A stretch of DNA of 64,000 nt from Pseudomonas entomophila (GTDB taxonomy: Bacteria; Pseudomonadota; Gammaproteobacteria; Pseudomonadales; Pseudomonadaceae), in NCBI RefSeq assembly GCF_023277925.1, contig NZ_CP063832.1, forward strand, positions 3,966,501-4,030,500, written 5' to 3'. Numbering within the stretch: position 1 is the stretch's first letter; each line of letters starts with the position of its first letter. Shown piece after piece: positions 47,827-60,402 of the stretch. Position numbers and translations under genes: made by a program. The notes beneath the pieces were generated by a model, which was given only the letters and a program-made list of their open reading frames with translations, had not been told where the DNA came from and ran no database searches.

Positions 47827-48129
47827 TTATTGGTCGCCGATGGTCCGGCTGATGGCATCGACGGTGGCGTCGATCTGCGCCTGGGTGCGCTCGAGGGTGC
47901 GATCGTGCTCGCGCTGCAGCTCGATCTGTTTGGAGCACAGGTTCAGGGCGGCCAGCACCAGCAACTTGTCGCCGATCAGGGTCGGGAACTGGCGCTTGGT
48001 TTCGGCCAGCGCGACATTGAGCATGCGCACGGCCTGGTTCAGGGTGTCTTCCTGGCCCTCGGGGGCCTTCAGCGAGTAGTCGTTGCCGAGGATCGACACG
48101 ACATTGATCGGCTGTTCTGGCCGTCTCAT
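47827..48129 (-). CDS. ZapA-like cell-division protein (probable paralogue)
   Basis: This 100-residue protein has the ZapA plan: an N-terminal beta/globular part (INVVSILGNDYSLKAPEGQEDTLNQAVRMLN) and a C-terminal coiled coil (LCSKQIELQREHDRTLERTQAQIDATVDAI). ZapA bundles FtsZ filaments. Its usual neighbours (6S RNA and a 5-formyl-THF cyclo-ligase downstream, a YgfB gene nearby) are all absent: a REP follows at once and chemoreceptor genes flank it. It is therefore probably a second copy, not the housekeeping one. It overlaps the next gene upstream by ATGA. Confidence 0.75.
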   Translation of the reverse strand: MRRPEQPINVVSILGNDYSLKAPEGQEDTLNQAVRMLNVALAETKRQFPTLIGDKLLVLAALNLCSKQIELQREHDRTLERTQAQIDATVDAISRTIGDQ

Positions 48130-48356
48130 GCGTTCACGACACCCGCGCTGGCGCGCTCGACCAGGGCCTGGATGCGTGCGGCGGTGGCGCCGTGCTTCTC
48201 CTCCTGTTCCATCAGCGACAACTGCAGGCTGTCGTTCTCTTCCTTGGCCTGGGCCAGTTCCTGGCCGAGGCTGGCGTTCTGCTCGGCCAGTTGCGCGTTC
48301 TTGTGCATCAGGTCGCTGACCAGTTGCTCGAGTTGATTCAGGGAAGTTTCCAACAT
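48126..48356 (-). CDS. Small coiled-coil protein (ZapB/TIGR02449-like)
   Basis: The protein is 76 residues from ATG 48356 (MLETSLNQLEQLVSDLM). Almost all of it is heptad-like coiled coil (KNAQLAEQNASLGQELAQAK, ENDSLQLSLMEQEEK). It overlaps the ZapA-like gene by ATGA, matching the usual pairing of a short coiled-coil gene with zapA in pseudomonads. The longer frame upstream has no support. A ZapA partner role is inferred from the pairing. Confidence 0.75.
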   Translation of the reverse strand: MLETSLNQLEQLVSDLMHKNAQLAEQNASLGQELAQAKEENDSLQLSLMEQEEKHGATAARIQALVERASAGVVNA

Positions 48357-48543
48357 GCGTCTATCTCGGGTTGTTGCAAAGGGCGCACACGATAAGGAAA
48401 AACCTGCGCCCCCGCCATTAAATATCGGATTCAAAAGGTTTTTGCCTGGGGAGGTTGACCGGATATCGCCCCCCTTGTTCCGGTCTGTGGCAACCGCTGG
48501 TCAGGAAGTTCGTTAGCGACTTCACACTTTCACCATTCACCAC

Positions 48544-48570
48544 TCAAGACTGGTCGGTCACGACCGATAG
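48544..48570 (+). promoter_or_regulatory. FliA (sigma-28)-like promoter with embedded palindrome
   Basis: TCAAGACT, 11 bases, then ACCGATAG compares with the sigma-28 pattern TAAAGTTT-n11-GCCGATAA (5/8 and 6/8 matches). It lies about 63 bp before the chemoreceptor start. A perfect 6+2+6 palindrome, TCGGTC-AC-GACCGA (48554-48567), overlaps the -10. Chemoreceptors are typical FliA targets. Confidence 0.5.
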
Positions 48571-48632
48571 GCAGGTAGGTCTTTTTCCGTCGCATGGATC
48601 GCGGCCCCCTCACTGCCTTGGATACCGCCTCC

Positions 48633-50258
48633 ATGTCCCTACGCAACATGAACATCGCCCCGCGCGCGCTGCTCGGGTTTTCGGTCATCGGCCTGCTGAT
48701 GCTCGGCCTGGGTGTGTTCTCCCTGATCCAGATGGGCAACATCCGCCAGGCCGGCGTGACCATCGAAGAAGTCAGCGTGCCCAGCATCAAGACCCTCGAT
48801 GAACTGACCGCGCTGAACCTGCGCCTGCGCACCCTCTCCTACCGCCTGCTGCTCAACCGCGAGCCAGCCACCCAGCAGGACACCCTGCGCCTGCTGGACG
48901 AGCGCAACGCCCAGATCGACAAGGCCCGCCGCGCCTACGAGCCGCTGGTCAGTGCCGCCGACGAACAGGCCGCGTACGACCAGTACAGTCAGTTGCTGAA
49001 CCAGTACCGCCAGCTCGAAGCGCGCATGCGCACCCTGAGCCAGGCCGGCGACCTCGATGCCCTGCGCGACCTGCTCAACCGTGAGTTGCTGGACAACTCC
49101 GAGCAGATCAACAAGGTCATGGACACCCTGGTACGCATCAACACCGACCAGACCAGCGCCACCAACGAGGCCGCCGCCAGCCAGTACAGCGGTGCCTTCG
49201 GCCTGGTGATCAGCCTGCTGGTGGCTGCCACCGTGCTGACCCTGCTGTTCGCCTTCCTGCTCACCCGCAGCATCGTCAAGCCCATCGACGAAGCGCTGAA
49301 GTCGGCCGAGCAGATCGCCGAGGGTGATCTCACCCACAACATCGACACCGAAGGCACCGACGAGGCCGCGCGCCTGTTGAAAGCCATGGCCAAGATGCAG
49401 GACAAGTTGCGCGACACCCTGCAACTGATCGCCGGCTCCGCCACTCAGCTGGCCTCGGCCGCCGAGGAGCTCAACAGCGTCACCGACGAGAGCGCCCGTG
49501 GCCTGCAACAGCAGAACAACGAGATCGAGCAAGCCGCCACCGCCGTCACCGAGATGACCAGCGCGGTCGAGGAAGTGGCGCGCAACGCGGTGAGCACCTC
49601 GGAAGCCTCCAGCGAAGCCAGCCGTTCGGCCGGCGATGGCCGCGACCTGGTGATGGAGACCGTGGGTGCCATCGAGCGCATGAGCGGCGACGTGCAGGCC
49701 ACCGCCAAGCTGATCACCCACCTGGCCGAGCAATCGCGCGATATCGGCAAGGTGCTCGACGTGATCCGTGGCCTGGCCGACCAGACCAACCTGCTGGCGC
49801 TCAACGCTGCCATCGAGGCCGCCCGTGCCGGTGAGGCCGGCCGTGGCTTCGCCGTGGTCGCCGACGAAGTGCGCGCCCTGGCGCATCGCACCCAGCAATC
49901 CACCAGCGAAATCGAGCGGATGATCGGCAGCATCCAGGGTGGCACCGAGCAGGCGGTGGACTCGATGCGCACCAGCACCGAGCGCGCCGAGTCGACCCTG
50001 AACATTGCCCGTGGCGCCGGCCTGGCGCTGGACACCATCGCCGGCGCGGTGGCGCAAATCAACGAGCGCAACCTGGTGATCGCCAGCGCCGCCGAGGAGC
50101 AGGCCCAGGTGGCCCGCGAGGTGGACCGCAACCTGGTGAACATCAACGACCTGTCAGTGCAGAGCGCCACCGGGGCGCACCAGACCAGCGCGGCGAGCGC
50201 CGAGCTGTCGCGCCTGGCGGTAGACCTGAGTGGGCTGGTGGCACGCTTTCGCACTTGA
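48633..50258 (+). CDS. Methyl-accepting chemotaxis protein with four-helix-bundle sensor
   Basis: The protein is 541 residues from ATG 48633 ([20 protein letters not shown]); starts at 48594 and 48648 are also possible. TM1 is at about 11-30, a 4HB_MCP periplasmic bundle at about 31-188 ([38 protein letters not shown]), TM2 at about 190-212 ([21 protein letters not shown]), HAMP, and the signalling tip [20 protein letters not shown] at about 382-401. The ligand is unknown. Its place next to gbcB suggests a choline/betaine-related attractant, but that is inference. Confidence 0.93.
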
Positions 50259-50284
50259 AAAAGCCGGGGCCGCTTTGCGGCCCC
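50259..50284 (-). terminator. Rho-independent terminator of gbcB
   Basis: GGGGCCGC-TTT-GCGGCCCC (stem 50266-50284). On the minus strand it is followed by GGCTTTTTC, so it fits the end of gbcB, and it also lies just after the convergent chemoreceptor stop. Confidence 0.75.
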
Positions 50285-50297
50285 CTGCACGCTCGGG

Positions 50298-51398
50298 TCA
50301 ATACTCGATCCGCACATCCCCCTTGGGTACGCTGCAGCACGACAGGATGTAGCCTTCGGCCTCATCTTCTTCGGTGATCCCGCCGTTGTGCTCCATCTCC
50401 ACCTCGCCGCCCAGCTTGAGCACTTTGCAGGTGCCGCAGATGCCCATCCCGCAGGCCTTGGGAATCATCAGCCCGACCTTGGCCGCCGCGGCGTGCACCG
50501 TCTCGCCCGGCGCCACGCGGATGCTCTTGTCGCTGCCGACGAACTCCACCAGGTTGAGGTCGGCCACATCCACTTCCGGCGCATCAGCGGCCTGCTCGGC
50601 GTGCTCCACCGCGTCGGCCTTGGCCTCCGGCGGCGTCGCGCCGAACGATTCCTCGTGGTAATTCTTCATGTCGAAGCCGACGGCCTCGAGCATGCGCTTG
50701 ACCGCGCTCATGTAGGGGGTCGGGCCACAGCAGAAGATGGTGCGTTCGAGATAATCCGGGGCGATCAGCTCCATCAGCCGCTGGTTCAGGTAGCCGCGGT
50801 AACCGGCCCACGGCTCACCCAGCCCGTGCTTCTCGCAAATGATGTGCAGGCTGAAGTTGGGGATGCGCGAGGCCATCTGCTCCAGCTCGCGGTGGTAGAT
50901 GATGTCCTTCGGTGAACGGGCGCTGTGCACGAACACCATGTCGACGTTGGCGTTGGTGTCGTAGAACCAGCGGGCCATGGACATCACCGGGGTGATGCCG
51001 ACACCACCGGAAAGATAGAGCACCTTGCCCGCCGGGAAGTCGATGGCATTGAACAGCCCCACCGGCCCGTGCACCGGCAGTTCGGCGCCTTCGTGCATGG
51101 TGTCGTGGAGGAAGTTCGATACCAGCCCGCCCGGCACGCGCTTGACGGTGATGGAGAAGCTGTAGGGCACCGACGGCGAACTGGAGATGGTGTACGAACG
51201 CATCACCGGCTTGCCTTCGATCTCCAGCTCGAGCGTCACGAACTGCCCGGGCTTGAAGAAGAACATGATCGGCTGGTCGGCCATGAAGCAGAAGGTGCGC
51301 ACGTCCCAGGTCTCCTGGATGACCTTGACGCAGCGCACGATGTGGCGGCCATTGGCCCAGGTCTGGGTGGTGACCGGATTGAGGAAGGTATCGGACAT
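50298..51398 (-). CDS. gbcB: Glycine betaine monooxygenase reductase component
   Basis: The protein is 366 residues from ATG 51398 (MSDTFLNPVTTQTW). GGAG six bases upstream decides this start over the ATG at 51404. FAD site MRSYTISSSP (about 97-106), NAD site LSGGVGITPVMSM and CCGPTPYMSAVKRML, and a C-terminal plant-type [2Fe-2S] domain with CGMGICGTCKV and a final Cys in ILSCCSVP. It passes electrons from NADH to the Rieske oxygenase GbcA. It is transcribed divergently from gbcA. Confidence 0.95.
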   Translation of the reverse strand: MSDTFLNPVTTQTWANGRHIVRCVKVIQETWDVRTFCFMADQPIMFFFKPGQFVTLELEIEGKPVMRSYTISSSPSVPYSFSITVKRVPGGLVSNFLHDTMHEGAELPVHGPVGLFNAIDFPAGKVLYLSGGVGITPVMSMARWFYDTNANVDMVFVHSARSPKDIIYHRELEQMASRIPNFSLHIICEKHGLGEPWAGYRGYLNQRLMELIAPDYLERTIFCCGPTPYMSAVKRMLEAVGFDMKNYHEESFGATPPEAKADAVEHAEQAADAPEVDVADLNLVEFVGSDKSIRVAPGETVHAAAAKVGLMIPKACGMGICGTCKVLKLGGEVEMEHNGGITEEDEAEGYILSCCSVPKGDVRIEY

Positions 51399-51543
51399 GT
51401 TCATCTCCAGCAGCCGACTGTCGGCCTTTCTTATGGTTCCGATAATGCGCAAGCCGGGGGCTGTGTACATTCCCATCCGCGACATCGGCGTGCTTATCGC
51501 GACCAGCCCCGCGCTACAAGGGTTGGCGCGTCGGAATTCGATT

Positions 51544-51570
51544 CGGCCATGTCGCCCGTGGACATGGCCG
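51544..51570. promoter_or_regulatory. 10-bp inverted repeat in the gbcA-gbcB divergent promoter
   Basis: CGGCCATGTC-GCCCGTG-GACATGGCCG is a perfect inverted repeat, roughly midway in the 298 bp between the two starts. It is a good candidate operator for the betaine regulon activator (GbdR, an AraC-type protein in P. aeruginosa) or another shared regulator. I cannot confirm that it matches the GbdR consensus. Confidence 0.5.
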
Positions 51571-51696
51571 TTTCCCGGCTCGAACGCACACTCCGGCAAA
51601 AGAACAGGTTGTTTATCCACAGCAGCCTTGCGGCATAAAAACAACGACACGATTAGCCACCTTTCGCCGGCCGACCACGGCCCTGAGGACCACACG

Positions 51697-52989
51697 ATGG
51701 ACGTCACCGCAACCCTGAGCCTGGGCGATCCACTGGAACCTGCACGCAAAGCCACCGCCGAGATGCTGCAGACCCGCGAGCGCACCTACTCGCTGCCGCA
51801 ACCGTTCTACAGCGACGAACGCCTGTTCCAGATCGACATGCAGGAGATCTTCCACAAGGAGTGGCTGATCGCCGGCCTGGTGTGCGAGATCCCGGCCAAG
51901 GGCAACTACATCACCCTGCAGATCGGCAAGAACCCGATCATCGTGGTGCGTGGCGCGGAAGGTAAGGTGCATGCCTTCCACAACGTCTGCCGCCACCGCG
52001 GCTCGCGGCTGTGCGTCAGCGAGAAGGGCAAGGTGGCCAAGCTGGTGTGCCCCTACCACCAGTGGACCTACGAGCTCGATGGCCGCCTGTTGTTCGCCGG
52101 TACCGAGATGGGCGCCGACTTCGACATGAACCAGTACGGCCTCAAGCCTGTGAACGTGAAGGTGGCCGGTGGTTACATCTTCATCAGCCTGGCCGAGAAC
52201 CCGCCGGCCATCGACGAGTTCCTGGCCACGCTCGAGCATTACATGGAACCCTACGACATGGAGAACACCAAGGTGGCGGTGCAGACCACCTTGATGGAAA
52301 AGGCCAACTGGAAGCTGGTGCTGGAGAACAACCGCGAGTGCTACCACTGCAACGGCTCGCACCCCGAGTTGCTGAAGACGCTGCTGGAATGGGACGACAC
52401 CAACGACCCGCGTGCCAGCCAGGAATTCAAGGACCACGTGGCCGCCTCCGCCGCCGCCTGGGAAGCCGAAAAGATCCCCTACCTGCACAAGAGCCACGGC
52501 CTGCGTAACCGCATCGTGCGCATGCCGCTGCTCAAGGGCACCGTGTCGATGACCATGGACGGCAAGCAGGCGTGCCAGAAGCTGATGGGCCGCATCAAGA
52601 ACCCGGACCTGGGCTCGATGCGCATCCTGCACCTGCCGCATTCGTGGAACCACTGCATGGGTGACCACATGATCGTGTTCACCGTATGGCCGATCAGCGC
52701 GCAGGAGACCATGGTCACCACCAAGTGGCTGGTGCACAAGGACGCGGTGGAGGGGGTGGACTACAACCCCGAAGAGATGCGCAAGGTGTGGGACGCCACC
52801 AACGACCAGGACCGCCGCCTGGCCGAAGAGAACCAGCGCGGGATCAACTCCACGGCGTACCAGCCAGGGCCTTATTCGAAAACCTATGAATTCGGCGTGG
52901 TGAATTTCATCGATTGGTACAGCCAGCGCCTGCTGAACAACCTTGGCGCCGAGCCTGCGTCGTACCTCAAGGAGATCAAGGCGCAGTAA
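51697..52989 (+). CDS. gbcA: Glycine betaine monooxygenase, Rieske oxygenase component
   Basis: This 430-residue protein starts at ATG 51697 (MDVTATLSLGDPLEPARK). The Rieske centre is C98-x-H100 ... C118-x2-H121 (NVCRHRGSRLC, VCPYHQWTYELDG). The mononuclear iron site is in ENNRECYHCNGSHPELL (H217, H222). It converts glycine betaine to dimethylglycine and formaldehyde with GbcB. The open frame upstream of 51697 is not coding. An exact DnaA box lies in its leader (51613). Confidence 0.96.
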   Translation: MDVTATLSLGDPLEPARKATAEMLQTRERTYSLPQPFYSDERLFQIDMQEIFHKEWLIAGLVCEIPAKGNYITLQIGKNPIIVVRGAEGKVHAFHNVCRHRGSRLCVSEKGKVAKLVCPYHQWTYELDGRLLFAGTEMGADFDMNQYGLKPVNVKVAGGYIFISLAENPPAIDEFLATLEHYMEPYDMENTKVAVQTTLMEKANWKLVLENNRECYHCNGSHPELLKTLLEWDDTNDPRASQEFKDHVAASAAAWEAEKIPYLHKSHGLRNRIVRMPLLKGTVSMTMDGKQACQKLMGRIKNPDLGSMRILHLPHSWNHCMGDHMIVFTVWPISAQETMVTTKWLVHKDAVEGVDYNPEEMRKVWDATNDQDRRLAEENQRGINSTAYQPGPYSKTYEFGVVNFIDWYSQRLLNNLGAEPASYLKEIKAQ

Positions 52990-52995
52990 GCCCAT

Positions 52996-53090
52996 AGCTA
53001 GCGACGCTGGCTCCTACACCTGGCCTGTAGGAGCCAGCCTTGCTGGCGAACAAACACACCGCCATTCGCCAGCAAGGCTGGCTCCTACAG
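52996..53090. repeat. REP pair plus a truncated REP copy, next to the RAYT gene
   Basis: A half copy (GACGCTGGCTCCTACACC, 53003-53020) is followed by a full pair, GCCTGTAGGAGCCAGCCTTG and its inverse, ending CTCCTACAG at 53090. It is 79 bp before the REP-associated transposase gene, the usual arrangement for the founder REP of a RAYT. Confidence 0.92.
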
Positions 53091-53168
53091 GTTACATGCG
53101 GCATCAGAATGCTCGGTGCCAGTGGTCACTGTCCACCTAGACTCTCCCGCTCACAAGGGAGATCACAG

Positions 53169-53624
53169 ATGAACCCCGCACATGCGCGACACCTACGAAA
53201 AGGTCGCTACTCCGAAACAGGTCGTCTCTACATCGTCACCAGTGTGGTGGACGAGAGGCAACCTCTGTTCGCCGACTTCCACCTCGCGCGCGCAATGGTC
53301 GCTCAGTTGCGCCATGCCCACGACCAGCAGTGGGTATGCAGCCTCTGTTGGGTGGTCATGCCCGACCACTTCCACTGGCTAATCGAACTGCGCCAGATCG
53401 AGCTCTCCAACCTCATGCGCAGGGTCAAATCCAGAAGCACGCTGCTCATCAACAAAGCTGCCTCCCGCCAAGGCCGCCTCTGGCAAAAGAATTTCCACGA
53501 TCATGCCCTGCGCAAGGACGAGGATATCCGCTCAGCCGCTCGCTATATCGTCAGCAACCCCCTACGGTCGGGGCTCGTACGCAGCTTGCGCAACTATCCG
53601 CACTGGGACGCTGTCTGGCTCTGA
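53169..53624 (+). CDS. REP-associated tyrosine transposase (RAYT, Y1/HUH family)
   Basis: The product has 151 residues from ATG 53169 (MNPAHARHLRKGRYSETGRLY), with GGGAG upstream. The HUH motif is HFH (H67, H69) in VVMPDHFHWLIEL, and the catalytic Tyr is probably Y126 in RYIVSNPLRSGLV. RAYTs are domesticated single-strand transposases that recognise REP hairpins with a GTAG head, and are thought to have spread them through the genome. A REP pair of the common GCCAGCC type lies just upstream. The stop codon TGA falls inside the first CTGATCA of the repeat array that follows. Confidence 0.93.
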   Translation: MNPAHARHLRKGRYSETGRLYIVTSVVDERQPLFADFHLARAMVAQLRHAHDQQWVCSLCWVVMPDHFHWLIELRQIELSNLMRRVKSRSTLLINKAASRQGRLWQKNFHDHALRKDEDIRSAARYIVSNPLRSGLVRSLRNYPHWDAVWL

Positions 53625-54196
53625 TCAGAAAACGTACAAACCACCGCAACCCACGCCCTGCAGGGTGCACAGACACCCACCAACACTTTATCCACAGCAC
53701 GGCCAACAGCAATTGTGGAAACTCCTCAAAAAAATTCAGGCATAGATCTGATCAAATTTCGATCAATCTAGTGCAAGCCTCTGAATTCAATGGCTCCAGA
53801 GTTATCCAAACAACTTGTCCACACCTTCGCCAACAGACTTTGTGAGCAAATCGGTCCCTGTGCGGAAAACCACTGTGGATAACACGACAACGCCCTGAAA
53901 ATACTGATTTCCAAGCAGAATAAAGGCCAGCTGATCACTTTCTGACCAAAACTGGCAACACCAATGAATTCAGGGCCTGTAGAGCACACCAAACATATTA
54001 TCCACAGACCAGCCAACAGCGATTGTGGGAAAGATTAGCCCTTCACCCCGCCATGAAAACGAAAAAGCCACGAACGGGTCGTGGCTTTAACTGATCAAAA
54101 ATCGACCAACACCTTGTAAGCCCTATGAACAAAGGCCTGCAGCAATACACAAACACTTTATCCACAGAAGCCCCAACAGATTTTGGGTACAACGCC
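53621..54196. repeat. Four-copy repeat array, each copy with a DnaA-box position at a fixed offset
   Basis: Units start with CTGATCA at 53621, 53748, 53931 and 54091. In every unit a DnaA box begins exactly 67 bp later: TTATCCACA at 53688, 53998 and 54158, and TTGTCCACA at 53815. CCAACAG begins 15 bp after each box start, and a TGTGG-type inverted half-box (TGTGG, TGTGA, TGTGG, TGGGT) follows. Between these landmarks only scattered matches remain (GACCAA, TGAATTCA, CAAACA). Extra boxes are TTATCCAAA at 53802 and an exact inverted one at 53874-53882. The 570-bp stretch is A+T-rich for this genome, has no ORF I would call, and runs from the RAYT stop to the etfB stop. DnaA binding is inferred from the box sequence; function is unknown (titration site, DnaA-reactivating site or cryptic origin). 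Confidence 0.85.
54062..54089 (-). terminator. Terminator of the dgc-etf operon, inside the repeat array
   Basis: AAAGCCACGA-ACGGG-TCGTGGCTTT is a perfect 10-bp stem. On the minus strand it ends GGCTTTTTC, fitting transcription from etfB, whose stop is about 108 bp upstream. It sits between repeat units 3 and 4, so unit 4 would be transcribed as a 3' UTR. Confidence 0.85.
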
Positions 54197-54967
54197 TCAA
54201 CGCAACACCCCCTCCTCCACCAACAGCTTGAGGATGGCCTCAGCCCCTTCCTGTGGAGAAACATCCTTGAGCACCTTGCCGCCCCCGCCACTGGCCTTGG
54301 CCGTGGCAGCCTTCATACGGTCGGCACCGCTCTTGGCCTTGATCACCTTAAGGCGCTTGGGCCGTGGCCGGGCCGGTTGCAAGGCGCCCTCGCCCAGCAC
54401 CGAGTCCTCCACCACCACCACGTTGCGCGCCGCCAGCACACCCCGGCGAGCCGGACCGAAGGCACTCTGGCGTGGCTTGGGCGCAGCGTTATCCACAGTC
54501 GCCAGCAACGGCAGGCGCACTTTCAAGCGACGCCGCTGGCCCCGTGGCAAGGCCTGCAGCACCTGCGCGGTGCCGTTCTCGATGGACTCCACCTCGGCCA
54601 GCCCGACCACCAGCGGCCAACCAAGCTTCTCGGCCAACAGGAATGGCAGCATGCCCGAACCTTCACCGGTCTCTGCCTGGCTGCCTGCCAGCACCAACTG
54701 GGCGCCGGCATCACGCAGGTAATCCCCCAGCACGCCGAGCACATCGGCGCCGGCCGGCTGCTCCAGGACATCCAGATGCGCCAGCCCCATGCCCAGATAC
54801 GCACGCAGGGCCTCTTCACGCGGGTCACCGGCATGAACCACCTGCAAGTTATCCCCAGCCAGCTGCAAGCCAAGTTCCACGGCGCGGGCATCCTGCTCGG
54901 CGCGGCGGGCGCGGCCGGAGCTGGGGTGGGCACCGATCGAGACCAGGCTGATGACTTTCGTACTCAT
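54197..54967 (-). CDS. etfB: Electron transfer flavoprotein beta subunit (dimethylglycine pathway)
   Basis: The protein has 256 residues. The N-terminal MSTKVISLVSIGAHPSSGRARRAEQDARAVELGL has the FixA-type layout, with VLAGSQAETGEGSGMLPFLLAEKLG as the nucleotide-contact part. It is more diverged than the housekeeping EtfB, as expected for the dgc-linked pair. With EtfA it carries electrons from the demethylase to the quinone pool. It follows etfA by 11 bases. An exact DnaA box (54489) lies within it. Confidence 0.9.
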   Translation of the reverse strand: MSTKVISLVSIGAHPSSGRARRAEQDARAVELGLQLAGDNLQVVHAGDPREEALRAYLGMGLAHLDVLEQPAGADVLGVLGDYLRDAGAQLVLAGSQAETGEGSGMLPFLLAEKLGWPLVVGLAEVESIENGTAQVLQALPRGQRRRLKVRLPLLATVDNAAPKPRQSAFGPARRGVLAARNVVVVEDSVLGEGALQPARPRPKRLKVIKAKSGADRMKAATAKASGGGGKVLKDVSPQEGAEAILKLLVEEGVLR

Positions 54968-54978
54968 GCTCGCTGCCC

Positions 54979-56211
54979 CTATGCCGCGTCGCGTTGGCCG
55001 GCACTGCGGTAGTTACCCACAGCGTCGATCAGTGCCTGAAGAATCGCCGAGCTGTCGCCGATCACCGACAGGTCAGCCCGCTTGATCATGTCGCAGCCCG
55101 GGTCCATGTTGATCGCCACCACCTTGTCGCAGGCACCGATGCCCTGCAGGTGCTGGATGGCACCAGAGATACCCACGGCCACGTATACCCGCGCCGTGAC
55201 CCATGTGCCGGTAGCACCCACCTGACGGTTGCGCGGCATGAAGCCGTCGTCCACCGCCACCCGCGAGGCGCCTTCGGTGGCGCCCAGGGCCGCCGTGGCC
55301 TTGTGGTACAGGTCCCAGTCCTTGACGCCGTTACCACCGGAGACAATGAACTCGGCCTCGGCCATGGCGATGGCGGCCGGGTCCACGGCCACCGGGCCAA
55401 GGTCCTCGATGCGCGACAGGCTGCGCGCGATGCCTGTGGACAACTCGACGGGCAGCGCTTCGTGGCGGGTTTCGCTGACCGGCTCGGCGCATTCGGCGGC
55501 GGCCAGGATCACACGTGGCAGATCACGCTGAATATCCTGCTGGCCAGCACCGGCACGGCCGATACACTGGCCATCCTTGACCTGCCACACCCGCGTCGCC
55601 GGGCGCTCGCCCAAGGCCGCGGCGAAACGCCGACCCAATTCACCACCCCCGGTACGGCTGTCGGGCAGCAACCAGTGGCGTGGGGATAACTGGTTATCCA
55701 CAGCTCGCAGGCCCTGCACCAGCTGCTCCGGTGCATAACCCTCGAACACCTCGCCCTCGATGACCAACAAGCGGTCGACGCCGGCTGTGGAAAAGTTGTG
55801 TTCCTTGTGTTCGCCAAAGACGATGGCCAGCACCGCGCCGTCGCTGCCCGCCAGGCTGTGGGCCAGGCCGAGCAAGTCGCGGTCGTGGCTGCCCAGGCGG
55901 CCGCCGACCATGTCCGGCACCACGGCGATGTAGAAAGCCGGCTCCGCCAACTGGTGCAGCGGCAGCTGCACCTCAGCGGCTGCCGTGCGCCGCCCGCCCA
56001 CGCCAGTGCCCTGCTGGGCGCCGCTGCGGTCGATGCGCTTGAGGCCGTTGGGGCCGATGAAGCCTGCGGCGATCGCGTGTGGGTTCTTGCGGATGACGCC
56101 GTGGGGGCCCATCCAGCTCGTCTGTTGCACCTGCATCGCCGCATGCAGCGGATGCAGGCGGTTACGGGCGATCCACTCGGCGCGTGGGTCGCGGCGGATG
56201 ATGTCGCTCAT
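54979..56211 (-). CDS. etfA: Electron transfer flavoprotein alpha subunit (dimethylglycine pathway)
   Basis: The protein is 410 residues, longer than usual because of an N-terminal extension of about 85 residues (IIRRDPRAEWIARNRLHPLHAAMQ). The FAD domain at the C-terminus is clear: VSGGNGVKDWDLYHKAT, RQVGATGTWVTARVYVAVGISG and AINMDPGCDMIKRADLSVIGD. ATG 56211 overlaps the dgcB stop. It has DnaA-like boxes within it (exact at 55694). Confidence 0.93.
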   Translation of the reverse strand: MSDIIRRDPRAEWIARNRLHPLHAAMQVQQTSWMGPHGVIRKNPHAIAAGFIGPNGLKRIDRSGAQQGTGVGGRRTAAAEVQLPLHQLAEPAFYIAVVPDMVGGRLGSHDRDLLGLAHSLAGSDGAVLAIVFGEHKEHNFSTAGVDRLLVIEGEVFEGYAPEQLVQGLRAVDNQLSPRHWLLPDSRTGGGELGRRFAAALGERPATRVWQVKDGQCIGRAGAGQQDIQRDLPRVILAAAECAEPVSETRHEALPVELSTGIARSLSRIEDLGPVAVDPAAIAMAEAEFIVSGGNGVKDWDLYHKATAALGATEGASRVAVDDGFMPRNRQVGATGTWVTARVYVAVGISGAIQHLQGIGACDKVVAINMDPGCDMIKRADLSVIGDSSAILQALIDAVGNYRSAGQRDAA

Positions 56212-58163
56212 CAGTGCACCTCCGCAGGTTCACGTTTGGCTGCCTGCGACTTGGCGGTTGCAGGTACTTCATCTTCGATCAGCACGTCGGCCACCAGCTC
56301 GGCGATGTCCTTGATTTGAGGACGCGGCTCGACCACGCCTTCAAGCATCGCCGTGCACTGTGGGCAACCCACCGCCACCAGCTCTGCCTGGGTCTCGCGA
56401 ATATCGTCCATACGCATGTCGGGAATGCGCTGCTTGCCGGGGATATCGGTGATCGGCGCACCGCCGCCACCACCGCAGCAACGGGAGCGGAAACCCGAAC
56501 GTTGCATCTCGCGCACTTCGATACCCAACGCCCTGAGCACGTCGCGCGGGGCTTCGTACTCGCCGTTGTAGCGGCCCAGGTAGCACGGGTCGTGATACGT
56601 GACGCTGCCACCCTTGTGCTGGCCGAGGTTGAGCTTGTTCGCGGCGATCAGTTCGGCGATGTAGGTGCTGTGGTGTTGCACCTGGTACTCGCCGCCCAGT
56701 GCGCCGTACTCGTTCTTCAGCACATGGAAGCTGTGCGGGTCGCAGGTGACGATGCGCTGGAACTGGTACTTGGCCAAGGTCTGGATGTTGCGTTTGGCCA
56801 GTTGCTGGAAGGTCGCCTCGTCGCCCAGGCGACGGGCCACGTCGCCGCTGTCGCGTTCTTCCAGGCCGAGCACGGCGAAGTCCACGCCCGAGGCCTTGAG
56901 CACTTTGACGAACGCACGCAGGGTGCGTTGGTTGCGCATGTCGAAGGCACCATCGCCAACCCAGAACAGTACGTCGGTGCGCTTCACCTCGGACAGAAGC
57001 TTCAGGCTGAGGTCGGCGGCCCAGTTCATCCGGCCGCCCGGAGCAAAGCCGCCGGGGTTGTCGGTGGCGATCAGGTTGTCGAGCACTTCGGCGCCCTTGT
57101 TCGGGGTGGCGCCCTTCTCCAGGGTCAGGTGGCGGCGCATGTCGACGATGGCGTCGACGTGCTCGATCATCATCGGGCACTCCTCGACGCAGGCGCGGCA
57201 GGTGGTGCACGACCACAGCGTCTCGGCGTCGACCAGCCCGTTGACGATCGGCTGGTGCGGGTGACCGCCATGCTCACCGACCGGCTTGCCCGGATAAGGG
57301 CTACCAGCGAACTGTGCATCGGTGCCACCGGCCAGGCCGATGACCATGTCCTGGATAAGCTTCTTCGGGTTCAACGGCTGGCCGGCCGCGAACGCCGGGC
57401 ACATGGCCTCGCACTTGCCGCACTGCACGCAGGCGTCGAAACCAAGCAGTTGGTTCCAGGTGAAATCAACTGGCTTTTCCACACCCAACGGCGCATTCGG
57501 GTCTTCCAGGTCCAGCGGCTTGAGGCCGGTGGAACGACCGCCGCCGAAGCGCTCGGCCCGGCGATGCCAGGCCAGGTGCAGGGCACCGGCGAAGGCGTGC
57601 TTCATCGGGCCGCCCCAGGTCATGCCGAAGAACAGCTCGGACACGCCCCACAGCACACCAATGCCCAGCAACGCGACGAGTACCCAGCCACCCGTACCTT
57701 CCGGCAGAATGCCGGCCACCGGCAACGTGGCGATGAAGAAACTCGCCGCGAACATCAGCAGGCTCTTGGGCAGGCGCATCCACGGGCCCTTGGACAGGCG
57801 CGCGGGCGGGTTGAGGCGGCGTTTGAAGACAAAGATCGCGCCGGTGAACATGATCACCGTGGCCACCAGCAGCGCGTAGCCGAGAATCTTGCTGTGCAGG
57901 CCGAAACCATGCACCAGGATCGCCAGCACAGCCGACAACACGAAGCCGCCTGCGGTGGCCACGTGGGTCTTGGACATGTACTTGTCGCGCTCGACCACAT
58001 GGTGCAGGTCCACCAGGTAGCGCCGCGGCATGGCCAGCAGGCCACCGATCAGGTCGACCTTGCTCGGCCGCCCGCGCCGCCACATGCGCACCCGGCGCAG
58101 GGCGCCGAGCACCGCCAGGCCAAGGGCGGCGAACAGCAGGATGGGTAGAAGGGTGTTCAACAT
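56211..58163 (-). CDS. dgcB: Dimethylglycine demethylation protein DgcB (membrane Fe-S protein)
   Basis: The protein is 650 residues from ATG 58163 (MLNTLLPILLFAALGLAVLGALRRV), with GGGAG upstream. There are four or five membrane helices in the first 210 residues. Two [4Fe-4S] motifs follow, CVQCGKCEAMCPAF and CTTCRACVEECPMM, then two cysteine-rich CCG-type domains (HDPCYLGRYN, RCCGGGGGAP, CPQCTAML), as in heterodisulfide reductase HdrD and glycolate oxidase GlcF. It is required with DgcA to convert dimethylglycine to sarcosine. It probably takes electrons to quinone, alone or with EtfAB. A REP pair separates it from dgcA. Confidence 0.94.
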   Translation of the reverse strand: MLNTLLPILLFAALGLAVLGALRRVRMWRRGRPSKVDLIGGLLAMPRRYLVDLHHVVERDKYMSKTHVATAGGFVLSAVLAILVHGFGLHSKILGYALLVATVIMFTGAIFVFKRRLNPPARLSKGPWMRLPKSLLMFAASFFIATLPVAGILPEGTGGWVLVALLGIGVLWGVSELFFGMTWGGPMKHAFAGALHLAWHRRAERFGGGRSTGLKPLDLEDPNAPLGVEKPVDFTWNQLLGFDACVQCGKCEAMCPAFAAGQPLNPKKLIQDMVIGLAGGTDAQFAGSPYPGKPVGEHGGHPHQPIVNGLVDAETLWSCTTCRACVEECPMMIEHVDAIVDMRRHLTLEKGATPNKGAEVLDNLIATDNPGGFAPGGRMNWAADLSLKLLSEVKRTDVLFWVGDGAFDMRNQRTLRAFVKVLKASGVDFAVLGLEERDSGDVARRLGDEATFQQLAKRNIQTLAKYQFQRIVTCDPHSFHVLKNEYGALGGEYQVQHHSTYIAELIAANKLNLGQHKGGSVTYHDPCYLGRYNGEYEAPRDVLRALGIEVREMQRSGFRSRCCGGGGGAPITDIPGKQRIPDMRMDDIRETQAELVAVGCPQCTAMLEGVVEPRPQIKDIAELVADVLIEDEVPATAKSQAAKREPAEVH

Positions 58164-58218
58164 GGGAGGCTCCCACAACAGCTAGAATCCTGCGCCGCTC
58201 TCAAGGGCGGCACCGACC

Positions 58219-58310
58219 CCTGTAGGAGCGGATTCATCCGCGATGAGGGCGGCACAAGCCGATGGGCTGTCGCTGCCGACGCTATCGCGGATGAATCCGC
58301 TCCTACAGGG
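58219..58310. repeat. REP pair inside the dgc operon, GCGGATTCATCCGC type
   Basis: CTGTAGGAGCGGATTCATCC and GGATGAATCCGCTCCTACAG form a matched pair. The stem variant (GGATTCATCC) differs from all other copies here, yet both arms carry it. It lies between dgcA and dgcB. Confidence 0.92.
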
Positions 58311-58341
58311 GGCCAATCCCGCCTCTAGAGAGGCGGTGCGA

Positions 58342-60402
58342 TCAGAAGTCCTTGCACAAGCGCAAGGCGTCGTAGATCGCCGCATGTACGTTGCGCTGGG
58401 CCACGCAGTCGCCGATGCGGTACAGCAGGTAGCCCTCGCCCGGCTGGCTGAGGATCGGCTGCGGCTTGATGGCGAACAGCGCCTCCACGTCGATCTGGCC
58501 CTTGTTGCGCGAACCCTCCTTCAACGCGTAGTACAACTGCTCGTCCGGCCGCACGCCGTTCTCGATCACCACCTGGTCGACCACCCGCTCCTCCTTGCCG
58601 CCGGTGTATTCGTTCTCGAGCACCGCCACCAGCTTGTCGCCCTCGCGGTAGACCTTTTCCAGCATCATGTCGCCGGTCATGATCACTTCTTTCGGGTAGA
58701 GGCTGCGGTAGTAGGTCGGGAAGGTGGTGCCGCCCATGGCCACGCCCGGCTTGATGTCGTCGGTGACGATCTCCACCTGGGCGCCCTTGTCGGCGAGGAA
58801 GTCGGCGGTGGACATGCCGGTGAACTCGCAGATGGTGTCGTACACCAGCACGTTCTTGCCCGGCGCGACCTTGCCGTCGAGCACGTCCCAGCTGCTCACC
58901 ACCAGCCCTTCGGCGGCGCCCCAATGCTCGTTCTGCTCGACGAACGGATGGCCGCCCACCGCCAGCACGATGATGTCCGGGCGCAGGTCCTGGATAGTCG
59001 CCACGTCAGCGGCAGTGCCCAGGCGCAGGTCGACCTTCAGGCGGGCGAACTCCAGCTGGTACCAGCGGGTGATGCCGGCGATCTGATCGCGTTGCGGCGC
59101 CTTGGCGGCGATGGTGATCTGCCCGCCGATCTGCTCTTTCTTCTCGAACACGGTGACGTCGTGGCCACGTTCGGCGGCGACACGGGCCGCTTCCATCCCG
59201 GCAGGGCCGGCGCCGACCACCACGACCTTGCGTTTCGGCCCGGTGGATTTCTCGATGATGTGTGGCACGCCCATGTATTCACGGGAGGTCGCGGCGTTCT
59301 GGATGCACAGCACGTCCAGGCCCTGGTACTGGCGGTCGATGCAGTAGTTGGCGCCCACGCACTGCTTGATCTGGTCGACCTGGCCCATCTTGATCTTGGC
59401 GATCAGGTGCGGGTCGGCGATGTGCGCGCGGGTCATGCCGACCATGTCGACGTAGCCACCCTCCAGAATACGCGTGGCCTGGTTCGGGTCCTTGATGTTC
59501 TGCGCGTGCAGCACCGGGACCTTGACCACTTCCTTGATGCCGGCCGCCAGGTGCAGGAACGGCTCCGGCGGGTAGCTCATGTTGGGGATGACGTTGGCCA
59601 GGGTGTTGTGGGTGTCGCAGCCCGAACCGACCACGCCGATGAAATCGAGCATGCCGGTGGCATCGTAGTAGGCGGCGATCTGCTTCATGTCCTCGTGGCT
59701 CAGGCCATCGGGGTGGAACTCGTCACCGCAGATGCGCATGCCCACGCAGAAGTCGTCGCCGACCTCCTTGCGCACCGCCTTGAGCACTTCCAGGCCGAAC
59801 TTCATGCGGCCCTCGAAGGTACCGCCCCATTCGTCGGTACGCTTGTTGACCCGCGGGCTCCAGAACTGGTCGATCATGTGCTGGTGCACGGCCGACAGCT
59901 CGACGCCATCCAGGCCGCCTTCCTTCGCCCGGCGCGCCGCTTGCGCGTAGTTGCCGATCACCCGCCAGATCTCTTCCGGTTCGATGGTCTTGCAGGTGGC
60001 GCGGTGCACGGGTTCGCGGATGCCCGACGGCGACATCAGGGTCGGCCAGTTGAAGCCGTCCCAGCGCGAGCGCCGGCCCATGTGGGTTATCTGGATCATG
60101 ATCTTGGCGCCATGCTTGTGCATGGCGTCGGCGAGGTTCTGGAAGTGCGGGATGATGCGATCGGTGGACAGGTTGACCGACGACCACCACTCCTGCGGGC
60201 TGTCGATGGCCACCACCGACGAACCGCCGCAGATCGCCAGGCCGATGCCGCCCTTGGCTTTCTCTTCGTAGTACTTCACATAGCGGTCGGTGGTCATGCC
60301 GCCGTCAGTGGCGTAGACCTCGGCGTGCGCGGTGCTGAGCACGCGGTTGCGGATGGTCAGTTTGCCGATCTGGATCGGCTGGAACATTGCTTCGAATGCC
60401 AT
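58342..60402 (-). CDS. dgcA: Dimethylglycine demethylase subunit DgcA (OYE-like FMN/FAD enzyme)
   Basis: The protein has 686 residues. An N-terminal old-yellow-enzyme barrel (about 1-370; MFQPIQIGKLTIRNRVLSTAH, GLDGVELSAVHQHMIDQFWSPRVNKRTDEWGG) is followed by a pyridine-nucleotide fold (VVVVGAGPAGMEAARVAAERGHD near residue 392). This is the architecture of trimethylamine dehydrogenase. The cluster motif CVGANYC-x11-C has Ala where that family has the second of four cysteines. It oxidatively removes a methyl group from dimethylglycine to give sarcosine and formaldehyde. Confidence 0.95.
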   Translation of the reverse strand: MAFEAMFQPIQIGKLTIRNRVLSTAHAEVYATDGGMTTDRYVKYYEEKAKGGIGLAICGGSSVVAIDSPQEWWSSVNLSTDRIIPHFQNLADAMHKHGAKIMIQITHMGRRSRWDGFNWPTLMSPSGIREPVHRATCKTIEPEEIWRVIGNYAQAARRAKEGGLDGVELSAVHQHMIDQFWSPRVNKRTDEWGGTFEGRMKFGLEVLKAVRKEVGDDFCVGMRICGDEFHPDGLSHEDMKQIAAYYDATGMLDFIGVVGSGCDTHNTLANVIPNMSYPPEPFLHLAAGIKEVVKVPVLHAQNIKDPNQATRILEGGYVDMVGMTRAHIADPHLIAKIKMGQVDQIKQCVGANYCIDRQYQGLDVLCIQNAATSREYMGVPHIIEKSTGPKRKVVVVGAGPAGMEAARVAAERGHDVTVFEKKEQIGGQITIAAKAPQRDQIAGITRWYQLEFARLKVDLRLGTAADVATIQDLRPDIIVLAVGGHPFVEQNEHWGAAEGLVVSSWDVLDGKVAPGKNVLVYDTICEFTGMSTADFLADKGAQVEIVTDDIKPGVAMGGTTFPTYYRSLYPKEVIMTGDMMLEKVYREGDKLVAVLENEYTGGKEERVVDQVVIENGVRPDEQLYYALKEGSRNKGQIDVEALFAIKPQPILSQPGEGYLLYRIGDCVAQRNVHAAIYDALRLCKDF

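Follow-up and report, generated by a model that had tools for sequence, protein, structure and literature searches.

A four-copy tandem array of candidate DARS-type DnaA-control modules, each with a Fis-consensus site, in Pseudomonas entomophila

The window analysed in this study, a stretch of 64,000 nucleotides from Pseudomonas entomophila, contains an intergenic array that we consider likely, on the arrangement of its binding motifs, to be a DnaA-control module of the DARS type repeated four times in tandem. A unit spans approximately 100 bp; with the first base of its strong DnaA box numbered 0, a Fis consensus occupies positions -65 to -51, box III 0 to 8, box II 12 to 20 and an inverted box I 26 to 34. 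The DnaA sites thus follow the pattern III-3 bp-II-5 bp-opposed I, and in each unit 62 bp separate the centres of the Fis consensus and box III. The best reading of this layout is an amplified, Fis-coupled module of the DARS type that would control the nucleotide state or the availability of DnaA, and its main caveat is the weak box II. The parts of the array are given below with bit scores from profile R1, which was built on 54 clustered units out of 55, the remaining one having an internal deletion, after units with truncated ends or fewer than 24 bits had been dropped.

53621..53722, + strand: unit 1 (R1 profile, 65 bits)
53623-53637: unit 1, Fis-consensus site GATCAGAAAACGTAC
53688-53696: unit 1, box III TTATCCACA
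53700-53708: unit 1, weak box II CGGCCAACA
53714-53722, - strand: unit 1, inverted box I GTTTCCACA
53748..53849, + strand: unit 2 (R1 profile, 63.7 bits)
53750-53764: unit 2, Fis-consensus site GATCAAATTTCGATC
53802..53810, + strand: additional one-mismatch DnaA box TTATCCAAA, just 5' of unit 2 box III
53815-53823: unit 2, box III TTGTCCACA
53827-53835: unit 2, weak box II TCGCCAACA
53841-53849, - strand: unit 2, inverted box I TTGCTCACA
53874..53882, - strand: additional exact DnaA box between units 2 and 3
53931..54032, + strand: unit 3 (R1 profile, 64.8 bits)
53933-53947: unit 3, Fis-consensus site GATCACTTTCTGACC
53998-54006: unit 3, box III TTATCCACA
54010-54018: unit 3, weak box II CAGCCAACA
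54024-54032, - strand: unit 3, inverted box I TTTCCCACA
54064..54088, - strand (that of etfB): terminator-like hairpin of 10 pairs with a T-rich tail, between units 3 and 4
54091..54192, + strand: unit 4 (R1 profile, 71.2 bits)
54093-54107: unit 4, Fis-consensus site GATCAAAAATCGACC
54158-54166: unit 4, box III TTATCCACA
54170-54178: unit 4, weak box II GCCCCAACA
54184-54192, - strand: unit 4, inverted box I TTGTACCCA

An earlier note had described this array as a repeat of CTGATCA with a DnaA box at a fixed distance, and its positions proved exact. CTGATCA begins at 53621, 53748, 53931 and 54091, a DnaA box begins exactly 67 bp after each (53688, 53815, 53998 and 54158; three TTATCCACA and one TTGTCCACA), and CCAACAG begins 15 bp after each box start (53703, 53830, 54013 and 54173); the exact inverted box reported at 53874 and the TTATCCAAA reported at 53802 are both present. 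What has changed is the identity of the landmarks: CCAACAG is part of the weak box II, the TGTGG half-box of the note is the inverted box I, and CTGATCA is not a landmark in its own right, since it is the left end of the exact Fis-consensus site. Box II is far from the DnaA consensus in all four window units, matching in its 3' part only. Exact boxes are indeed as rare by chance as the note had estimated, with 7 in the window against a mean of 0.05 in 60 first-order Markov simulations, while boxes with at most one mismatch number 21 against 4.5 expected, a count reached in 0 of 100 shuffles. On the forward strand of the window CTGATCA occurs 12 times and CCAACAG 11 times, so it is their combination, and not each word, that is special. 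Three more exact DnaA boxes lie in the window at 51613, 54489 and 55694, the latter two inside the etfB-like and etfA-like genes, respectively. Terminator-like hairpins in 53500-54300 number 2, compared to 1.1 in shuffles, by consensus match only. In addition, a GCC..GGC stretch is conserved at unit positions -40 to -20, between the Fis site and box III; a hairpin at this place was rejected, as pairing did not exceed the column-shuffled expectation for conserved pairs and no covariation beyond composition was seen. An Rfam scan of 48000-60000 gave no match at the gathering threshold.

The Fis consensus was scanned for in the form GNNYRNNWNNYRNNC, and exact matches are found on the box III side of all four window units. 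Across 107 units from 45 loci, selected by the box and YYAACAG alone, this consensus starts at -65 in 99 units and at the next-best offset in 6 of 107, against a background of 0.0023 per base. Since the units are not independent of one another, those at least 90% alike were also removed; this leaves 88 units of less than 90% identity, 80 of which keep the offset. A G and a C placed 14 bp apart are invariant in all 107 units and in all 54 rows of the alignment, as the Fis consensus explains; 48 of the same 54 rows carry an exact consensus, with 89% A/T in the central 7 bp. The motif GATCAA-n4-TTG also resembles an IHF site, and IHF was considered as the upstream protein; it was set aside because the Fis consensus accounts for the invariant G and C while IHF scored weakly. 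The IHF-like signal lies at -54 (42 of 107 units with at most two mismatches), overlaps the Fis site and is not the top signal in distant units. A published form of the Fis consensus is GNNYANNNNNTRNNC (PMC4585315), and Fis sites in P. putida are a subject of study (PMC5612765). On this pattern Fis is predicted to bind the units.

The arrangement of the DnaA sites matches that of the E. coli DARS sites. At DARS1, presumably located between bioD and uvrB, the best arrangement in the intergenic stretch scanned is TAATACACA-3-TTATCCACA-5-opposed TTATCCACT. At DARS2, where the core was placed at 3136-3170 of L086 by primers printed in PMC4585315 together with a geometry scan, the best arrangement in the intergenic stretch scanned is TTCTTCACA-3-CTATCCACA-5-opposed TTATTCACC. 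Box order, orientation and gaps are therefore the same in the Pseudomonas units and in both DARS sites, all of which are intergenic. The opposed boxes I and II of DARS promote ADP release as well as head-to-head contacts between DnaA molecules (PMC8682772), and boxes 1 and 2 are required for ADP release at E. coli DARS2 (PMC4585315). Fis and IHF sites are present at DARS2 (PMC8682772, PMC4245941), and 5' of its box III our scan located an exact Fis consensus at -125 together with IHF-like matches at -87 and -71. By motif, the Fis consensus is thus on the box III side in both DARS2 and the units; however, it is nearer in the Pseudomonas units (starting at -65 or -66), which also differ from DARS2 in having no clear IHF site. 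No exact Fis consensus was found 5' of box III in the stretch scanned at DARS1. A second III-3-II-5-I look-alike was observed at L086 3453-3486 (E. coli K-12), approximately 300 bp from the DARS2 core.

Compared to the E. coli DARS sites, the Pseudomonas units occur in four tandem copies and at several loci per genome, and their box strengths are permuted, with III strong and II weak. The strong box is II in DARS1 and in most distant relatives but III in Pseudomonas, and the activity could differ as a result. The Pseudomonas HMM did not match the E. coli DARS and datA regions (best score 8.8 bits). By position, the DARS box arrangement is present in all four window units, and it is clear in 67-68 of 75 units from distant relatives; boxes I and II are not both recognisable in the window units, however, because box II is degenerate, and the units are for this reason described as DARS-like instead of being filed as plain DARS. 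Among the uses proposed in the earlier note (datA, DARS or a secondary origin), it is to DARS that the layout points, and the units are probably derived from a DARS. The combination of a strong box III with a weak box II keeps this assignment at likely and no higher, and leaves a modest share to titration and a smaller one to a datA-like role.

The spacing within the array is conserved, with no gaps, in comparison to two relatives (G190 and G127). Against each of the two, the array differs at 0/36 positions in box III, 2/36 in box II and 1/36 in box I; the Fis sites differ at 3/60 positions from G190 and at 9/60 from G127, the linkers at 31/232 and 24/232, respectively, and the sequence between units at 34/172 in both cases. 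Fis sites are better kept than linkers in G190 (5% versus 13%), but not in G127 (15% versus 10%). The proposal that protein-binding geometry is under selection gains from the constant offset between Fis site and box in 99 of 107 units and from boxes that diverge far less than the inter-unit sequence. Within the genus, TTATCCACA-n6-CCAACAG with at most one mismatch was found in 178 of 199 genomes and was absent from 21, while a reversed-pattern control gave at most one match per genome; in a family-wide draw the same pattern was found in 113 of 248 genomes. Among the matches listed, many genomes hold three to five copies at one place, 120-200 bp apart, and some hold single copies only. A longer form of the pattern matched at least 119 stretches, and among the matches listed all 80 contigs are named Pseudomonas. 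In other genera of the family, 1-29 units were found in each of 42 genomes (18 genera). The top counts, 24-29 units per genome in several tandem clusters, were observed in one genus, g12 (G209, G225, G236, G247 and G277).

Whether the unit is a dispersed repeat had been raised as a question, and the answer depends on how the unit is defined. A genome-wide search for TTNTCCACA-n6-CCAACAG without mismatch gave four matches in the 5.76-Mb source genome, all in the array, while the R1 profile recovered 12 units at E<=1e-5 in six places; the unit therefore belongs to a small family and is not a unique element. Relative to dnaA (match at 4382678; the array is 362 kb away), these units lie at -654 kb (two), -421 kb (two), about -362 to -363 kb (the four of the window), +674 kb (two) and +728 kb (one), with a weak one at +2.35 Mb, near 979.9 kb of the genome. 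Eleven of the 12 are thus 0.36-0.73 Mb from dnaA, and none is in the box-dense 100 kb at oriC. Outside the array, an exact Fis consensus at -65 is present in seven of the eight unit places examined, the eighth (3728736) being a 13.8-bit match without a proper box; boxes II and I are poor in some of the outside units, most of all at 3961696 (the second unit of the -421 kb cluster). A similar placement recurs in other genomes, where wrapped distances may be off by up to approximately 50 kb because genome sizes were rounded. Among the matches listed, 11 of 15 genomes hold an array of four to five units 358-676 kb from dnaA, and of the 10 such arrays in the 14 other genomes only one, in G015, is on the opposite arm. 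Also among the matches listed, G391 has single units only at 358-676 kb, and most units found in the 15 genomes are within approximately 1 Mb of dnaA. Three-unit arrays occur at 729-868 kb in G412, G138 and G420, together with other clusters. Weak units at approximately 2.3-2.4 Mb were also seen in G190 and G391.

Exact DnaA boxes are themselves unevenly distributed in the source genome, where 103 were found compared to 12 for the reversed word. For 100 of the 103, density drops from 40 boxes per 100 kb (16 in all) at up to 20 kb from oriC to 0.06 (one box) beyond 2 Mb. A second shoulder in the density of these 100 boxes was observed at 250-750 kb, where most units lie. Accumulation of DnaA boxes near oriC is already known from E. 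coli and Salmonella (PMC12371093), and the gradient in the source genome is of the same kind; the Pseudomonas units, however, form a separate layer away from the oriC-proximal 100 kb. This enrichment suits the strongest alternative, in which the units act as a titration reservoir that binds DnaA tightly after its early duplication and leaves the nucleotide state unchanged. The strong box III would serve such a reservoir well, and in E. coli much of the titration power is attributed to DARS1, DARS2 and datA (PMC12371093). Titration alone, however, gives no reason for a conserved Fis site, 3- and 5-bp spacings or an opposed weak box, and we regard it as a distinctly less probable account than a DARS-type module.

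The E. coli region that we fetched as datA, at what we take to be its position, contains no III-3-II-5-I place at up to five mismatches and gave no match to the HMM (best 3.8 bits), although datA and the Pseudomonas units are both clusters of DnaA sites outside oriC. A datA-like role, in which a DnaA complex would promote ATP hydrolysis and repress re-initiation, is favoured by that shared character, and oligomers of ATP-DnaA could form more readily where weak sites adjoin a strong one. datA itself is described as a DnaA-site cluster outside oriC with a site for a bending protein (PMC8682772), and it depends on boxes 2 and 3 and on an IHF site at a set spacing (PMC4585315). In the units the IHF-like signal is weak and overlaps the Fis site, and the opposed 5-bp pair is a feature of DARS, which makes ATP hydrolysis at these sites improbable.

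The genes around the array bear on two further explanations, and are as follows:

51703..52989, + strand: Rieske oxygenase gene, presumably gbcA (Pfam Ring_hydroxyl_A and Rieske), the conserved flank opposite etfB, with a provisional 5' end at 51703
53169..53624, + strand: RAYT-like gene with ATG at 53169 (Pfam Y1_Tnp in the tested stretch 53160-53624)
54197..54967, - strand: etfB-like gene, which we take to be etfB (Pfam ETF), converging on the array

The array lies between converging genes, and a scan of the array region found no promoter-like site. Within the fetched 1.5 kb, the Rieske oxygenase and/or etfB adjoin 37 of the 42 loci with at least three units; both are present at 22, and neither at five (L037, L058, L077, L078 and L084). 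A role for DnaA and Fis in the transcription of adjacent genes would be in keeping with published gene regulation by Fis in P. putida. DnaA, for its part, acts as a transcription factor (PMC8203912). Such a role is very unlikely here given the converging genes without a promoter-like site; in addition, the clusters at -654, -421, +674 and +728 kb (D, E, B and C) are intergenic and beside unrelated genes, though some of these clusters are 5' of a gene, for which such a role is conceivable. The placement of the array between a RAYT gene and etfB, as first described, is accurate in that both genes adjoin it, and the stop codon of the RAYT-like gene even falls within the first CTGATCA. This gene looks like an incidental neighbour, however, as it was found at only one of 87 related loci (L052; approximately 1.5 kb scanned on each side). 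REP-like inverted repeats were observed at 53020-53100 of the window, just 5' of the RAYT-like gene. A functionless repeat, for instance a RAYT/REP-linked element or a relic of tandem duplication, could be suggested by the abutting gene, but the link to RAYT expected of a REP/RAYT repeat was seen at one of the 87 loci scanned, boxes diverge far less than the sequence between units and conservation is genus-wide, so this explanation is highly improbable. A secondary replication origin, which a DnaA-box cluster might bring to mind and which the earlier note had also proposed, appears very unlikely, as dnaA has a box cluster of its own 362 kb away.

The DARS-type reading draws further evidence from more distant genomes. 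R1 matches at E<=1e-5, with the E-values of the model being rough, were found in 127 of 245 genomes of the order and 88 of 276 genomes of the class (own family included), and outside the family the match mostly occurs once per genome. Geometry was counted in 75 units from 68 fetched loci (L194-L261), a subset of the profile matches, in which the typical core is TTATCCACn-3-TTATCCACA-5-TGTGGATAA. Box II with at least eight of nine letters lies 3 bp past box III in 67 of the 75 units and is exactly TTATCCACA in 61, while an opposed box I with at least seven of nine letters lies 5 bp past box II in 68; the other III-II and II-I gaps tried gave counts of 0 or 1. The model may have favoured the 3' part of this box II but did not impose the full box, since the units on which it was built mostly have a degenerate box II. 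It is the exact box II in 61 of 75 distant units that links the Pseudomonas units to DARS. No common gene neighbourhood was found outside the family, with a flanking protein family shared by at most six of 40 loci. The II-5-I pair alone was found in 221 of 370 genomes of the class, with one reversed-control match seen; this count takes palindromic pairs on both strands and includes pairs at oriC.

The Fis consensus is exact at -64 to -67 in 57 of the 75 distant units, a position that the model favoured. An independent sample of 30 loci (39 oriented pairs) was picked by II-5-I only, with no Fis signal used, and here -66 from box III was the top offset for the Fis consensus, with 11 occurrences compared to a mean of 0.14 over 300 offsets. 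The consensus was present at -64 to -67 in 12 of the 30 loci and absent in 18; together with its absence from the DARS1 stretch, this indicates that Fis coupling is frequent but not universal. One of the 12, at L269, has its match in an orientation without box III, which probably arose by chance. Two further loci deserve separate description. L003 (G000:C1:135124-135158), in the source genome, has a canonical DARS-like core with box III CTGTTCACA and TTATCCACAAATTTTGTGGATAA and an exact Fis consensus at -66, approximately 1.5 Mb from oriC; this core may be the ancestral element, retained alongside the amplified units. L219 (G445), in another family of the order, has three near-identical units approximately 670 bp apart, apparently an independent tandem amplification.

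If the array is a DARS-type module, several steps can be proposed. Fis, perhaps with IHF, would bind and bend the DNA, by analogy with E. coli, and DnaA would load from the strong box III onto the weak box II and the opposed box I. The resulting head-to-head complex may then change the nucleotide state of DnaA, most likely through ADP release as in DARS, which would help to set the timing of initiation at oriC. The direction of action (reactivation, inactivation or titration) is something we infer from this comparison. Several copies mostly within approximately 1 Mb of oriC could tie activity to early gene dosage, while Fis could tie it to growth phase, and the weak box II may increase the reliance of the unit on Fis or ATP-DnaA, or alter its output. 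As judged from its motifs, the array is probably an element controlling replication timing. It is conceivable, and we put it forward only tentatively, that in pseudomonads an ancestral, usually single-copy gammaproteobacterial DARS gave rise to a distributed set of approximately 5-29 Fis-coupled modules, most of them around oriC, with nucleation shifted from box II to box III and a weakened box II. Such modules might form a third class of site in addition to DARS and datA, switching DnaA in a manner that depends on Fis and ATP, with the copy number of the array and its distance from oriC setting the timing of initiation.

DARS sites are described in E. coli and close relatives (PMC8682772, PMC4245941). 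A search by title and abstract of the literature on DARS, datA and DnaA-box clusters in Pseudomonas, with most subscription journals outside its reach, found no such site, and for Pseudomonas the accessible portions of PMC8203912 and PMC4285127 contain only boxes at oriC and the dnaA promoter. The results suggest that the geometry of the DARS core, in many cases coupled to a Fis site, predates the form known from E. coli and is more widespread than it. The contrast between single-copy units with a strong box II and multi-copy units with a strong box III offers a natural series in which to test what boxes determine whether a site reactivates, inactivates or titrates DnaA. If the reading proposed here is right, the timing of replication in Pseudomonas could be studied through these units, as a concrete set of sites that can be deleted.
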